Of a stretch of 64,000 nt of DNA, positions 22,991-51,949 are shown one piece after another; position 1 is the stretch's first letter, and every line of letters begins with the position of its first letter. The stretch comes from Chloroflexota bacterium (GTDB taxonomy: Bacteria > Chloroflexota > Anaerolineae > Promineifilales > Promineifilaceae). Location: NCBI GenBank assembly GCA_022616275.1, contig JAKEFB010000121.1, positions 1 through 64,000 on the forward strand, in the 5' to 3' direction. The notes under the pieces were generated by a model. It made no database searches and was not told where the DNA came from. It saw only the letters and a list, made by a program, of their open reading frames with translations. Made by a program: the position numbers and the translations under genes.

Positions 22991-23964
22991 TGCCGAACCC
23001 GTTGCATGTCCTGGTTGTTGAAGACGGCCCGGCCGGCGCCGGAGAGGTATTGATCGCCTTGCGCCAGGCCGGCTTTGAGCCCCACTACGAGCAACTTTCG
23101 GGCGACCTGGCCGCCCGGCTCGGCAACGGGCCCCGGCCAGACCTGGTTGTCCTGGCCGCCGGCCGGCCGGTCGCCTCAGAGATGGAGCTGGCCGAGCTGC
23201 GTGATCGCCTTCAGGACCTGGACCGCCTGAAGGCCAAGTTTATGGCCGACATTTCCCACGAGTTGCGCACACCCGTTTCTAACCTGAGCCTCTATCTGCA
23301 CCTGCTGGAAAACGGGCCGGCCGAGAAGCGGGAACGATACATGGCCGTGCTCAAAGAGCAAATTACCCGGCTGGTCACCCTGCTGGACGACACTTTATTC
23401 CTCTCCCGGCTGGAACCCGACGAACTGGAAGTGACCTTTGAGCGGGTTGATTTAAACGAACTCGTGGAAACCCTCCTACCCGCCTATCGCGAGCAGGCCA
23501 AATTAGCCGATCTGGCTCTCGCCTTTCGCCCGGGCCAGGCGCTGCCGCCGGTGCGCGGGCAAGCCAGCCAATTGGGACAGGTAGTGGCCCAGCTGCTGGA
23601 AAATGCCATCAGCTATACGCCCGCCGGCCGGGTGGAAATCCAGACGTACCTGGGCCGGCCGGGCGAAGTCTGCCTGGAAGTGGCCGACACCGGCGACGGC
23701 ATCGCCCCCGAGGATATGCCTTACCTCTTCGAGCGCTTTTACCGCGGCCGAAACGCCGGCCAGGGCCGTATTCCAGGCACGGGCCTGGGCCTGACGGTCG
23801 TCCAGGCCATCGTCAACGCCCACGGCGGCCGGATTCAGATCCAGAGCCAGGCCGGGTCCGGCTCCTCTTTCCAGGTCTCCCTACCCGCCTGGCCCGAGCA
23901 CGAAGACGCGCCCGATATGCCTCAAGTCGTGCCTGACACGGGGCAGCAAGTCTCCATTTATTGA
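22990..23964 (+). CDS. Histidine kinase with N-terminal degenerate receiver
   Basis: In this 324-residue protein, residues 1-60 read like a receiver start (LHVLVVEDGPAGAGEVLIAL) but the strand that should bear the phosphorylatable Asp reads PDLVVLAAGRP, so it is a pseudo-receiver. A short coiled coil leads to HisKA (FMADISHELRTPVSNLSLYL, His acceptor) and HATPase (QLLENAISYTP, VADTGDGIAPEDMPYLFERF, GTGLGLTVV). No membrane segment is visible, so it is cytosolic. It is translationally coupled to the HD-GYP regulator, its likely partner. Confidence 0.93.
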   Translation: MPNPLHVLVVEDGPAGAGEVLIALRQAGFEPHYEQLSGDLAARLGNGPRPDLVVLAAGRPVASEMELAELRDRLQDLDRLKAKFMADISHELRTPVSNLSLYLHLLENGPAEKRERYMAVLKEQITRLVTLLDDTLFLSRLEPDELEVTFERVDLNELVETLLPAYREQAKLADLALAFRPGQALPPVRGQASQLGQVVAQLLENAISYTPAGRVEIQTYLGRPGEVCLEVADTGDGIAPEDMPYLFERFYRGRNAGQGRIPGTGLGLTVVQAIVNAHGGRIQIQSQAGSGSSFQVSLPAWPEHEDAPDMPQVVPDTGQQVSIY

Positions 23965-24008
23965 AGCTATTTTGCTCCGTGCCAGGCACGGCCAGTTCCA
24001 AAAACCCC

Positions 24009-24037
24009 TTGATCTGCTCAGACAAATATGCTAAGCT
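24009..24037 (+). promoter_or_regulatory. Candidate promoter of the leuS leader
   Basis: TTGATC (24009-24014), 17-bp spacer, TAAGCT (24032-24037), 6 nt before the leader-peptide ATG: again a leaderless arrangement. The -10 box is weak. Confidence 0.4.
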
Positions 24038-24043
24038 GTAACT

Positions 24044-24139
24044 ATGAATAACACGGATCACACCTGGACCCTATTCCTAGCTCTTCTAAACAGCCGGCAA
24101 GGCATCCTTTTGGGCTGCGTGAGGGCGCCAGGTGACTGA
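24044..24139 (+). CDS. Leucine-rich leader peptide upstream of leuS
   Basis: A 31-codon open frame reads MNNTDHTWTLFLALLNSRQG followed by ILLGCVRAPGD. Codons 10, 12, 14 and 15 are CTA, CTA, CTT, CTA, and 22-23 are CTT, TTG; CTA is a codon hardly used in the neighbouring genes, which favour CTG. The stop codon lies in the loop of a hairpin (24125-24150, GCGC/AGGT arms). An intrinsic terminator follows 25 nt later, still ahead of leuS. This is the layout of a ribosome-mediated attenuator that senses Leu-tRNA supply. No homologous leader is known to me for this group. Confidence 0.65.
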   Translation: MNNTDHTWTLFLALLNSRQGILLGCVRAPGD

Positions 24140-24154
24140 TTAACCTGCGCGAGA

Positions 24155-24208
24155 CCGTTTATTAAACGGCCACGGGTGTTCTCCAGCCCGTGGCCGTTTT
24201 TTGTTTTT
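24155..24208 (+). terminator. Attenuator terminator with overlapping antiterminator before leuS
   Basis: AAACGGCCACGGG (24164-24176), a 10-nt loop, CCCGTGGCCGTTT (24187-24199) and two T runs form a strong intrinsic terminator 67 bp before the leuS start. CCGTTT at 24155-24160 can pair instead with AAACGG at 24164-24169, the base of the terminator stem, and so could act as an antiterminator. Confidence 0.75.
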
Positions 24209-24215
24209 AAGGCAA

Positions 24216-24259
24216 GGATCAAGTGTCAAGGATCAAGTAGGGTAAGCCACGTGACACTT
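24216..24259. repeat. Short 7-bp-type repeat tract (GGATCAAGTGTCA)
   Basis: GGATCAAGTGTCAAGGATCAAG and the inverse word GTGACACTT lie between the attenuator and the leuS ribosome-binding site. Confidence 0.55.
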
Positions 24260-24274
24260 TCATTAGGAGGAATA

Positions 24275-26740
24275 ATGATCAACAAATACGACTTTAAGGC
24301 TCTGGAAGAGAAATGGCGACCGGTCTGGAAGGCCATGGAGCTGTACCGGACCGGCGACAACCCGGAGAAGCCCAAATACTACATCCTGGACTTCTTCCCC
24401 TATCCGTCTGGCGACGGCCTGTCGGTGGGGCACTGCCGCAACTACGTGCCGACCTGTGTCTCTGCCCGCTTCAAGCGGATGCAGGGCTATAACGTCTTGC
24501 ACCCCATGGGCTGGGACGCCTTCGGGCTGCCGGCCGAAAATTACGCCATCCAGCACGGCGTCCACCCCCGCATCACCACCGACCGGCAGGTGCGCAATTA
24601 CCGCCGCCAGTGCGAACTGGTTGAATGCTCCTATGACTGGGCGCGGGAAATCAACTCCACCGACCCGGCGTATTACCGCTGGACACAGTGGTTCTTCCTG
24701 CTGCTGCATAAACACGGCCTGGCCTACCGGGCCATGGGCAGCCAGTGGTGGTGCCCCAAAGACCAGACCATCCTGGCCAACGAGCAGGTGGAGCGCGGCC
24801 GCTGCTGGCGCTGTGGTTCCCTGGTCACTCGCAAAGACCTGGAACAGTGGTACTTTAAAATCACCGACTACGCCGACCGGCTGCTGGCCGACCTGGACAC
24901 CGTCGAGTGGCCGGAATCAATCAAGATGATGCAGCGCAACTGGATCGGCCGCAGCGAAGGGTACGAAGTGACTTTTACGGCCGGCGAGCAGGCCATCCCC
25001 GTCTTTACCACCCGGCTGGACACGCTGTTTGGGGCCACCTTCCTGGTCCTGGCCCCGGAGCATCCCCTGGTCCAGACCCTGACCACGGCCGGACAACAAG
25101 CTGAAGTGGGCGCTAGCGTCGAAGCCGCCCGGCGTATGGCCGACGTTGACCGGCTGGCTGCCGGCCGCGACGAAGCCGGCACGATCAGCGGCGTTTTCAC
25201 CGGGGCCACCGCTACCCACCCTCTGACCGGACAGCCACTCCCTATCTGGGTGGCCGATTACATCCTGACCGGTTACGGGACCGGAGCCGTCATGGGCGTG
25301 CCCGGCCACGACAGCCGCGACTTCGCCCTGGCCCGCCGATACAATCTGCCGGTCATCCGCGTCGTCCGCCCGGCCGGCTCAACTGACGAAACGCCGGAAT
25401 GCTTCACCGAGCCGGGCGTCCTGGTCAATTCCGGCCCCTACACCGGCCTGACCTCGGCCGCCGCCAGCGAACGGATGGCGGCCGACCTGGCCGGCCGGGG
25501 GCTGGTCCGGCCGCAGGTCATGACGAAAATGCGGGACTGGCTGATTTCCCGCCAGCGCTACTGGGGCGCGCCTATCCCGATGATCCATTGCCCGGCCTGC
25601 GGCATCGTCCCCGTGCCCGAGGAGGAACTGCCGGTGCTGCTGCCGGACGTGACCAGCTTTGCCCCGTCCGGCGACGGCCGCTCGCCGCTGGCCATGGTGG
25701 AAGAGTGGGTCAACGTCACCTGCCCTCAGTGCGGCGGCCCAGCCCGGCGCGAGACGGACACCATGGACGGCTTTGCCTGCTCGTCGTGGTACTTCCTGCG
25801 CTTTGCCAGCCCCCACGAGGACAGCCACCCCTTTGACCCGGCGGCTGTGGCCTACTGGCTGCCGGTAGACACTTACGTCGGTGGGGCCGAACACGCCGTC
25901 ATGCACCTGCTGTACGCCCGTTTCTGGACCAAGGTCATGTACGACGCCGGGCTGATCTCCTTTGTCGAGCCGTTTAGCCAACTGCGCAACCAGGGCGTGC
26001 TGCACGCCGCCGACGGCCGGCGCATGTCCAAATCCAGGGGCAACGTCGTCACTCCGGACGAAGTCATCGCCGAGCATGGCACGGACGCGCTGAGGAGTTA
26101 CATCCTGTTTATCGGCCCCTTTGAAGGGGACACGACCTGGGACGGCGCCAACATTAAGGGCGTGGACCGCTTCCTGGAGCGCTACTGGACCCTGGCCCAC
26201 GACATCGCGGCCTGGGAACAGGCTGGCAGGCCAGCCAACGGCGAGGTGGACGACGCCTTCCGCCGCCGGCTGCACCAGGTCATCCGGCGCGTCACCGGCG
26301 ACTTCGAGCAATTCAAATTCAATACCGCCGTCGCCGCCCTGATGGAATACCTGAATGAGCTGTACGACCGCCGCCAACAGCCCATCACTCCGGCCGCCTG
26401 GCGCGAAGCCCTGGAAACCTTTACCCGGCTGCTGTGTCCCATTGCCCCGTTCATCACCGAAGAAATCTGGCAGGAGGTCCTGGGCCACCAGGGGCAATCC
26501 GTTCACCAGCAGCCCTGGCCCATCTACGACGAAGCCCTGGCTACGGCCGGCGAGATGACCATCATGGTCCAGGTCAACGGCCGGCTGCGCGACCGCATCA
26601 CGGTCCCGGCCGGCATCACCGACGAGGCCCTGCAACAAGCCGCTCTGGCCCGCCCCAACATCCAGCGCCACGTTAACGGCCAGACGATCCAAAAAGTGGT
26701 CGTCGTGCCGGGGCAGGTGGTGAATATTGTGGTATCGTAG
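24275..26740 (+). CDS. leuS: Leucyl-tRNA synthetase
   Basis: The 821-residue class I enzyme has the HIGH-type signature in FFPYPSGDGLSVGHCRNYVP, a zinc-ribbon-like insertion (WCPKDQTILANEQVERGRCW with CGS), a CP1 editing domain (TFLVLAPEHPLV, VMGVPGHDSRDFALARRY) and KMSKS as RRMSKSRGNV. The anticodon-binding and C-terminal domains end in VVVVPGQVVNIVVS. AGGAGG lies 4 nt before ATG 24275; the longer frame from 24176 runs through the terminator and is not real. It appears to be controlled by the leucine leader-peptide attenuator immediately upstream. Confidence 0.97.
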   Translation: MINKYDFKALEEKWRPVWKAMELYRTGDNPEKPKYYILDFFPYPSGDGLSVGHCRNYVPTCVSARFKRMQGYNVLHPMGWDAFGLPAENYAIQHGVHPRITTDRQVRNYRRQCELVECSYDWAREINSTDPAYYRWTQWFFLLLHKHGLAYRAMGSQWWCPKDQTILANEQVERGRCWRCGSLVTRKDLEQWYFKITDYADRLLADLDTVEWPESIKMMQRNWIGRSEGYEVTFTAGEQAIPVFTTRLDTLFGATFLVLAPEHPLVQTLTTAGQQAEVGASVEAARRMADVDRLAAGRDEAGTISGVFTGATATHPLTGQPLPIWVADYILTGYGTGAVMGVPGHDSRDFALARRYNLPVIRVVRPAGSTDETPECFTEPGVLVNSGPYTGLTSAAASERMAADLAGRGLVRPQVMTKMRDWLISRQRYWGAPIPMIHCPACGIVPVPEEELPVLLPDVTSFAPSGDGRSPLAMVEEWVNVTCPQCGGPARRETDTMDGFACSSWYFLRFASPHEDSHPFDPAAVAYWLPVDTYVGGAEHAVMHLLYARFWTKVMYDAGLISFVEPFSQLRNQGVLHAADGRRMSKSRGNVVTPDEVIAEHGTDALRSYILFIGPFEGDTTWDGANIKGVDRFLERYWTLAHDIAAWEQAGRPANGEVDDAFRRRLHQVIRRVTGDFEQFKFNTAVAALMEYLNELYDRRQQPITPAAWREALETFTRLLCPIAPFITEEIWQEVLGHQGQSVHQQPWPIYDEALATAGEMTIMVQVNGRLRDRITVPAGITDEALQQAALARPNIQRHVNGQTIQKVVVVPGQVVNIVVS

Positions 26741-50857: not shown

Positions 50858-51949
50858 TTAACGGCCGCCGGCGCCGTTGGCCTCAATCAGGTACGTCCAG
50901 TTAAAGCGGTCTTTGATCCGGCCGTATTGGATGTCGGTCAGCTCCTGGTAGAGGTGGCGGGAGACCGGGCCGACTTCAAAGTTGTTGACCGGGTACTCCT
51001 TGTCGCGGTAGCCGAATTTGCCCACCGGGGCAATGACGGCGGCCGTGCCGCAGCCAAAGGCCTCGGTAATCTTGCCGGACTCCACGTCGGCCAGCATCTG
51101 GTACACGTCAATCATTTCTTCGCTGACGGTGTAGCCCAGGTCGCGGGCCAGGGTAATGACCGAGTCGCGGGTGACGCCGGGCAGGATGCTGCCGGTGAGT
51201 GGCGGGGTGACGACGTGTTTGCCGTCGTAGACAAAGCAGATGTTCATCGCGCCCACTTCCTCAATATAGCGGCCTTCGGCGGCGTCCAGCCACAAGACCT
51301 GGGAGTAGCCCCTGGCCCTGGCCTGCTCGCCGACCAGGAGGCTGGCGGCATAGTTGCCGCCGGTCTTGGCCGCACCGGTGCCGCCCTTGGCGGCCCGGCG
51401 GTAGTTGTGCTCGATGTAGACCGAAACGGGGCTAAAGCCTTCTTTGAAGTAGGCGCCCACCGGCGACAGAATCACGAAGTGCAAGTATTCCCGGCTGGAG
51501 TGAACGCCCAGGGCGACCTCGGTAGCCAGCATCACCGGCCGGATGTAGAGCGACGTTCCCGGCCGGCTGGGCACCCACTCATGGTCCAGGCTAATTAATT
51601 GAATAATAGCTGCCAGGTGCTCCTCCTCGTCCACGACGGGCATGGCCATGCGCCGGGCCGAGGCGTTGAAGCGCTTCATATTTTCCCAGGTGCGGAAAAT
51701 ATTGATGTGGCCGTCCGGCCGGCGGTAGGCCTTGGTCCCCTCGAAAATTTCCTGGGCATAATGGAATACAACTGTGGCCGGGTCCAGGCAAATGGGCCGG
51801 TAAGGGCCGATGGTTGCCTCGTGCCAGCCCCTTTCTGGCGTATACTTTTGGGTAAACATTCGGTTGGTCATGTGGCGGCCGAACCCCAGGTTAACGTTGG
51901 GAATTTCCTTAAGCTCCCCCTCCTCTAGGGGTAAAATTTTAATATCCAC
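50858..51949 (-). CDS. ilvE: Branched-chain amino acid aminotransferase
   Basis: The 363-residue fold-type IV PLP enzyme catalyses the last step of Leu, Ile and Val synthesis. VVFHYAQEIFEGTKAYRRPD, NMKRFNASARRMAMP, SLYIRPVMLATEVALGV and KGGTGAAKTGGNYAASLLVG (catalytic Lys in KTGGNYA) are diagnostic of class II IlvE/BCAT. YIEEVGAMNICFVY and EAFGCGTAAVIAPVG also fit. The GTG at 51949 follows AAAGGAG by 6 nt and replaces a longer unsupported start at 52000. A palindromic element lies in its 5' leader. Confidence 0.96.
   Translation of the reverse strand: MDIKILPLEEGELKEIPNVNLGFGRHMTNRMFTQKYTPERGWHEATIGPYRPICLDPATVVFHYAQEIFEGTKAYRRPDGHINIFRTWENMKRFNASARRMAMPVVDEEEHLAAIIQLISLDHEWVPSRPGTSLYIRPVMLATEVALGVHSSREYLHFVILSPVGAYFKEGFSPVSVYIEHNYRRAAKGGTGAAKTGGNYAASLLVGEQARARGYSQVLWLDAAEGRYIEEVGAMNICFVYDGKHVVTPPLTGSILPGVTRDSVITLARDLGYTVSEEMIDVYQMLADVESGKITEAFGCGTAAVIAPVGKFGYRDKEYPVNNFEVGPVSRHLYQELTDIQYGRIKDRFNWTYLIEANGAGGR

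Follow-up and report, generated by a model that had tools for sequence, protein, structure and literature searches.

The leucyl-tRNA synthetase (LeuRS) gene leuS in the DNA analysed here (positions 1 to 64,000 of contig JAKEFB010000121.1, assembly GCA_022616275.1, from a Chloroflexota bacterium of the class Anaerolineae and family Promineifilaceae; all 64,000 nucleotides are called the window below) is preceded by a small open reading frame (ORF) with clustered leucine codons and then by a strong intrinsic terminator. Very likely, these elements form a ribosome-mediated transcription attenuator with Leu-tRNA as its signal. In favour of this reading, the arrangement recurs across the family and the class, leader and leuS make opposite choices of Leu codons, the geometry is fixed, and an antiterminator covaries in distant relatives. 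The parts are the following:

24044..24139, + strand: leader peptide ORF of 31 codons, identified by translation, with counterparts before 33 other leuS genes.
24071..24088, + strand: regulatory codons CTA TTC CTA GCT CTT CTA (LFLALL), the predicted stall site.
24107..24112, + strand: two further Leu codons, CTT TTG.
24118..24139, + strand: predicted 5' strand of the antiterminator, made of the last leader codons and the stop, pairing with 24166-24185.
24129..24147, + strand: CAGGT-loop-ACCTG hairpin with the leader stop codon inside its loop (minimum-energy fold).
24164..24199, + strand: intrinsic terminator hairpin, found by an independent terminator scan and by folding (P of at least 0.97 in full-length folds).
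24197..24208, + strand: T-rich tract of the terminator.
24265..24270, + strand: Shine-Dalgarno sequence AGGAGG of leuS.
24275..26740, + strand: leuS (ATG at 24275), an a-type LeuRS of 821 aa with editing and anticodon-binding domains.

The leader translates as MNNTDHTWTLFLALLNSRQGILLGCVRAPGD, and its six Leu codons are CTA, CTA, CTT, CTA, CTT and TTG. An earlier note on this DNA had pointed to this ORF with four of its leucines in LFLALL, to the avoidance of CTA in the surrounding genes, to the stop codon within a hairpin loop, to the strong terminator and to the AGGAGG before leuS, and all of these were borne out. CTA accounts for three of the six Leu codons of the leader versus 10 of 299 in six long window ORFs (Fisher p 0.001; the six include leuS, and two of them overlap each other), and the fold of 24038-24212 has a z score of -3.66 against shuffles. 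Clusters of at least four Leu within six codons are rare in the window: of its short ORFs, taken as 12-45 aa and counted on both strands, seven of 864 have one, and two of these seven are followed by a terminator-like hairpin; because of this rarity, a leader ORF with a terminator appears to be beyond chance. The sole case in the window apart from the leuS leader is a GTG-start ORF at 51821-51928, probably a chance occurrence. Both features shared by the members of the leader set, clustered Leu codons in a short ORF and an intrinsic terminator between this ORF and leuS, are found in the window.

The codon choice of leuS is the opposite of that of its leader. CTG is used at 59 of the 61 Leu positions of the window leuS, with TTA, CTT and CTA all absent, versus 131 of 238 in five further long ORFs of the window (Fisher p 2e-11). 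The contrast extends to the relatives: the Leu codons of 32 leaders (n=195) are TTA 66, CTT 50, TTG 32, CTC 26, CTG 18 and CTA 3, and those of leuS in the same genomes (n=1486, some of the leuS sequences being partial) are CTG 1218, TTG 147, CTC 54, CTA 44, CTT 14 and TTA 9. All three leader CTA codons belong to the window leader. In all 34 pairs of leader and leuS compared, the leader has the smaller share of CTG. High expression may explain part of the CTG bias of leuS. Of the 44 tRNA matches in the genome to which the window belongs (G000), five are tRNA-Leu genes, with the anticodons CAA, TAA, TAG, CAG and GAG.

To survey the family we examined 29 a-type loci (28 from a search with the N-terminal part of the LeuRS plus a second copy in genome G004), three of which end at a contig edge (G020, G042 and one G004 copy). 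In the inspection of relatives' leuS upstream regions that the earlier note had suggested, a Leu-codon ORF and, behind it, an intrinsic terminator appeared in 25 of the 26 loci with enough upstream sequence. No family locus was found to keep the terminator after loss of the ORF: the 26th lacks both, and the Leu cluster is weak in G054. At the class level, where a search with LeuRS gave hits with E of at most 1e-76 in 51 of 397 genomes, the leader precedes eight of the nine a-type leuS placed on our tree from outside the family (G413, G316, G030, G026, G183, G223, G300 and G364). Three more are a-type by BLAST, specifically G218, with a leader, G352, with a leader by eye, and G186, where a very short Leu-rich ORF was all that could be seen by eye. 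Across 34 leaders, 20 hold at least four and 32 at least three Leu within six codons (7 and 78 of the 864 short window ORFs, respectively), and the mean Leu share is 0.20 versus 0.07 in the short window ORFs. A motif resembling RLxGLLLG appears in leaders of several genera.

The spacing of the elements is also preserved, with 23-40 nt between leader stop and terminator arm in 31 of 32 leaders and 53 nt in the remaining one. In nine relatives from the class, none of them from the family, base pairs form between the last leader codons and the terminator (its 5' arm and loop). In an alignment of these nine built by hand, 86.4% of the cells of the antiterminator helix are paired versus 78.8% after shuffling, and covariation is 0.327 versus 0.195, values reached by none of 500 shuffles in either case. 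Versions of the helix slid along the alignment do not exceed 59.3% paired, and one of the pairs takes four forms (UA, GC, AU and CG). Along these lines, the terminator 5' arm is paired upstream with a mean probability, over 32 leaders, of 0.77 when a ribosome is placed on the first Leu pair and of 0.20 when it is at the stop, versus 0.63 in shuffles (combined p 8e-4); with one leader per genus (19 genera) the combined p is 0.0009 or 0.0012. The geometry of the window itself fits such a mutually exclusive antiterminator.

These elements suggest the following mechanism. Transcription would begin at 24044 or slightly upstream, and a ribosome would start on the leader ORF immediately. With Leu-tRNA plentiful, above all the readers of CTA and CTT, the ribosome would reach the stop (24137) and cover 24118-24139, the terminator at 24164-24199 would form and the transcript would end near 24205. 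With Leu-tRNA short, the ribosome would stall at 24071-24088 and leave 24118-24139 free to pair with the emerging terminator 5' arm and loop (24166-24185), and RNA polymerase would enter leuS, which would thus be induced. Being almost wholly composed of CTG at its Leu positions, leuS might then be translated even while the tRNAs for the rare codons are short. The proposal of the earlier note that stalling on rare Leu codons attenuates leuS is supported by the recurrence, the codon contrast, the geometry and the covariation in distant relatives.

Several further features of the region belong to this scheme or lie beside it:

24009..24014, + strand: candidate -35 element TTGATC of a promoter-like site.
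24029..24037, + strand: candidate extended -10 element TGC-TAAGCT, placing the putative transcription start at or adjoining the leader ATG.
24061..24067, + strand: CACCTGG, the complement of CCAGGTG at 24128-24134.
24155..24169, + strand: CCGTTT-ATT-AAACGG alternative hairpin (CCGTTTATTAAACGG), overlapping the terminator base.
24221..24259, + strand: 8-bp inverted repeat AAGTGTCA/TGACACTT between terminator and Shine-Dalgarno sequence, the latter not included.

The two promoter elements are separated by a 17 nt spacer, and the -10 hexamer (24032-24037) is followed by the leader ATG 6 nt downstream, so that the leader-peptide mRNA may be leaderless, as the predicted promoter suggests. A general promoter scan of the window did not list the TTGATC/TAAGCT site. 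A comparable combination (TTGAnn located 17-18 nt upstream of an extended -10, TGnTAnnnT) was seen in 13 of the 19 leaders inspected, out of 34, and the predicted 5' untranslated regions measure 1-2 nt in three of them (G058, G062 and G001) and up to 40 nt in others of the 19. CACCTGG possibly acts as a competitor of the antiterminator when the leader is free of ribosomes. The CCGTTT/AAACGG pairing had been described in the earlier note as the alternative to the terminator and is indeed present. As an antiterminator it is not favoured, the pairing of 24118-24139 with 24166-24185 being better supported. Specifically, in transcripts ending before the terminator 3' arm the short hairpin forms without ribosomes or with a ribosome at TTG23 or at the stop, and it yields to the longer antiterminator with a ribosome on Leu codons 10-15 or at CTT22.

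A number of observations weigh against an attenuator of this kind. For the window taken alone, neither the antiterminator duplex (-20.4 kcal/mol, shuffle p 0.26) nor the sequestration test (p 0.12) stands out, and the duplex reaches p of 0.05 or less in just 10 of the 31 other leaders. In full-length folds the terminator keeps its P of at least 0.97 at every ribosome position tried; since it always wins in complete transcripts, antitermination would have to be kinetic, taking place during RNA synthesis. Among the nine class relatives, 82 of 500 shuffles had at least as many pairs with changes on both sides, and 35 of 500 at least as many types of pair. The peptides are poorly conserved beyond the Leu run, the coding signal in leader substitutions is weak (codon-position counts being too noisy to serve as a coding test), and two of the 34 leaders (G054 and G026) hold at most two Leu per six codons. 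A DNA search of the 53 family genomes with the window leader found the leader itself and a 41-base match in G056 but no leader of any relative; hence it is the plan that recurs and not the sequence. The 26th family locus, in G056, has neither leader ORF nor terminator and carries just the second element described below, and one a-type row of the class (G090) has no leader. By eye, no leader was apparent in the 500 nt upstream of leuS in five named relatives from outside the class that belong to the same LeuRS clade, the nearest by contig scan at 52-55% identity (two Riflebacteria, Cryosericum, Armatimonadetes and Fermentibacteraceae). Finally, TTA is the commonest Leu codon of the leaders, and UUA and UUG are, according to theory developed for E. 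coli, poor regulatory Leu codons (PMC1183508, as far as its accessible text goes), a misfit unless the tRNA pools differ.

We have considered three other explanations. The hairpin might simply be the terminator of the upstream gene (histidine-kinase-like by eye, ending at 23964) and the small ORF a chance reading frame; intrinsic terminators are common after genes, and the window antiterminator is no better than shuffles. However, the hairpin lies 200 nt beyond that stop codon and behind a promoter-like site, and a chance reading frame would hardly reappear as a Leu-codon ORF before leuS across family and class, with a codon choice opposite to that of leuS. These observations make the explanation very improbable. 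Leader peptides can also work through nascent-chain stalling, and the signal might then be something other than Leu-tRNA, such as the peptide itself or translation in general, with the Leu codons incidental. A precedent that speaks for it is the ilvB leader of S. coelicolor, in which changes of candidate regulatory codons are reported to be without effect (PMC1262725, in the part of the paper accessible). Yet the regulated gene here is leuS, the leaders are on average richer in Leu than the short window ORFs, and the peptide sequence beyond the cluster is not kept, so that we give this possibility very little weight too.

The leader might, instead, control the translation of leuS by pairing with its Shine-Dalgarno sequence, and not transcription. 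In relatives, 12 of 13 second leader ORFs do pair with the leuS Shine-Dalgarno sequence or start codon in a fold. In the window, however, no significant pairing of the Shine-Dalgarno sequence with upstream sequence was found (shuffle p 0.27), its best partner falls outside the leader ORF, and a strong terminator separates leader and leuS; a Leu-codon element sequestering the Shine-Dalgarno sequence was accordingly discarded for the window, and control of translation there is the least probable of the three. Control by a T-box was rejected as well, because neither a match to Rfam RF00230 nor the T-box sequence was found before the window leuS; the T-box in a covariance search that the earlier note had named as refuting its reading did not turn up. 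At curated cut-offs, Rfam yielded one tRNA and nothing else in the whole window. Down to E 10 it gave no bacterial amino-acid control element in 23900-24350, and the Leu leader family RF00512 had no match at cut-off in the window nor, to E 10, in that interval.

The leader marks one of two types of leuS. The N-terminal portion of the LeuRS from the window, used as query against the 53 family genomes, had matches in 46; we sorted the types by score and counted by hand: a-type genes (the window type, at least 70% identity) occur in 28 genomes and b-type genes (about 50%) in 41, with both in 23, a-type only in five and b-type only in 18. The genome of the window carries both, and in the three-contig assembly G024 both lie on one contig. 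A tree of 60 LeuRS splits the two types at 100/99 into clades of 42 and 18 rows. In the b-type clade 14 of the 18 rows have a T-box and four have none by motif, T-boxes on the tree being called by sequence motif up to 1500 nt upstream. In the a-type clade 33 of the 42 rows are labelled as having a leader, four of these by hand for a second leader ORF (G054, G042, G056 and one G004 copy), and the nine unlabelled rows are G364 (leader found later), G020 (no upstream sequence), G090 and six named out-of-class contigs. The idea of the earlier note that this lineage controls leuS by leader peptides is thus right as to recurrence but incomplete, since T-boxes are kept too: Rfam matches (E 0.001 or better) are found in all 53 family genomes, in 51 above the cut-off. 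For b-type or related leuS the Rfam cut-off was reached by one of 12 sources (G024), and the second leuS of the window genome has a T-box by motifs before its operon, below that cut-off.

Neither half of the division is strict. The rule that b-type genes have a T-box fails in the four clade rows without the motif, among them G015, for which 380 nt upstream were at hand. The rule that leaders occur only on a-type leuS is weakened by genome G273. By BLAST its leuS falls closest to rows of the T-box clade, and leader-like elements precede it: an ORF rich in Leu, a hairpin resembling a terminator and an antiterminator of 8 bp; perhaps this is a swap of sensors. At this locus (L269, G273:C174:13400-16400) the ORF begins VKLLSVSLALALLALTNERW, and no T-box is present in the stretch inspected.

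A second small ORF precedes leuS at 13 loci (in g23, g5, G053, G016 and G047), located behind the first unit wherever that unit is present and the sequence covers it. When the stretch from ORF start to leuS start is folded, its Leu-codon run provides the pairing with the Shine-Dalgarno sequence or start codon mentioned above, the sole locus without it being G041. Pairing to the Shine-Dalgarno sequence exceeds that of shuffled upstream sequence (p of 0.023 or less) in eight of 28 loci, seven of which carry a second ORF and the eighth of which is the contig-end G004 copy, with matching Leu codons; six of the 13 second-ORF loci are not significant in this test. The pairings of each locus' own Leu codons and Shine-Dalgarno sequence rank 1, 2 or 4 of 120 permutations (five genera, 20 choices of representatives), and from these ranks the two sequences seem to have changed together, albeit in few genera.

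We see the evidence as evenly balanced for a broader picture, in which the class runs two leuS genes on two tRNA sensors, with a tandem of attenuator and anti-Shine-Dalgarno second leader in several genera. Uncharged tRNA-Leu would be read by the T-box of the b-type gene, and slow decoding of rare Leu codons by the a-type leader. In the tandem device the Leu codons of the second leader (CTC, TTA and TTG) would be the anti-Shine-Dalgarno sequence of leuS, so that one stalled ribosome would save the transcript and another would free the start site. Since Leu codons can complement a Shine-Dalgarno sequence, sensor and switch strand could be the same nucleotides.

Some other features of these leuS regions deserve mention. 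Inspection of 24 leuS loci showed a complete tRNA-Ala(GGC) gene within the T-box leader of 17, placed after the stem I motif and before the T-box sequence; in 16 of these it is preceded by a tRNA-Ala(CGC) gene. One of the 17 leaders stands before the second leuS operon of the window genome (contig C11, L195:748-1060); the others are L045, L033, L026, L035, L012, L016, L019, L202, L205, L206, L209, L214, L015, L017, L022 and L021. At five loci (L037, L040, L025, L220 and L221) the tRNA-Ala(GGC) gene comes before stem I instead, and no stem I motif could be located at L014 and L020. Processing of the internal tRNA would cut the riboswitch. Among the titles searched, none pointed to a report of a tRNA-Ala inside a T-box leader. 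In the window genome this internal copy is the single tRNA-Ala(GGC) among the 44 tRNA matches; a further copy may be missing, as the assembly is 98% complete. The same genome gave a weak tRNA-Pyl call with a CUA anticodon (L260, G000:C182:8775-8846) and a tRNA-SeC in L232.

In family f29, genomes G343, G143 and G277 (L210, L217 and L218) share a stretch before leuS genes with Lys-rich N-terminal extensions; it can encode SCLLARxGLQ in G343 and G143, shows no evident terminator by eye and is perhaps a third kind of Leu leader. Family f51 (L204, L212 and L203) shares, by eye, a stretch after the attenuator with GGAGGTGAT and an inverted repeat near leuS.

The enterobacterial leu operon leader controls biosynthesis and not a synthetase. 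It is like the window element in attenuating on Leu codons (RF00512), and the Salmonella leader has three CUA codons, whose replacement by CUG lowered sensitivity (PMC1183508, accessible part). The contrast between rare codons in the leader and CTG in leuS offers a natural case for theories of attenuator codon sensitivity.

Closer in target are the classical attenuators that Seliverstov et al. (2005, PMC1262725) predicted upstream of leuS in Streptomyces avermitilis and S. coelicolor, with the same gene, a leader ORF, an antiterminator and a terminator. They are found in Actinobacteria, and the likeness is drawn here from the published text rather than from an alignment. Unlike in that account, as far as its text goes, the device marks here one leuS clade, the other having mostly T-boxes. 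The LEU element of actinobacterial leuA resembles the second ORFs of the relatives in that a run of Leu codons pairs with the Shine-Dalgarno sequence of the gene; it differs in serving leuA and not leuS, in having a predicted pseudoknot and in not being described, in the text available, behind a transcription attenuator (PMC1262725). Pairing of this type was not found in the window. Changes of its Leu codons reportedly leave LEU regulation unaffected and a binding protein has been proposed (PMC1262725), which calls for caution about the stalling model put forward here.

We found no report of leuS leader control outside Actinobacteria among titles and abstract openings, most subscription papers lying outside the search. 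The accessible text of PMC3766115 and PMC7778990 does not mention leuS, and the corresponding text of PMC2494555 lists six T-boxes for two Chloroflexi genomes and names ileS and trp genes, not leuS. With attenuation of leuS itself already predicted in Streptomyces, what appears new against this literature is the pairing of two leuS genes with different sensors and, in relatives, the tandem Leu device; the novelty of the lineage rests on the relatives and not on the window copy. If our reading is true, a bacterial class is added to the map of leader-peptide control, and the relatives form a natural set in which one signal acts on transcription, on translation or on the two in succession.

The T-box (RF00230), found here before b-type leuS, likewise senses the state of a tRNA for synthetase genes; it differs from the window element in having no leader peptide and is not found before the window leuS. 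The nearest parallel to the pair is hisS in bacilli, whose paralogues are under either a T-box or a His leader peptide (Naville and Gautheret, 2010, PMC2965389, in its accessible part). There, as here, the paralogues of one synthetase are divided between the two devices; that case concerns histidine in Firmicutes and ours leucine, along the well-supported a/b split of leuS, and would, if true, be a synthetase gene pair divided between both classic strategies of tRNA sensing within one cell.

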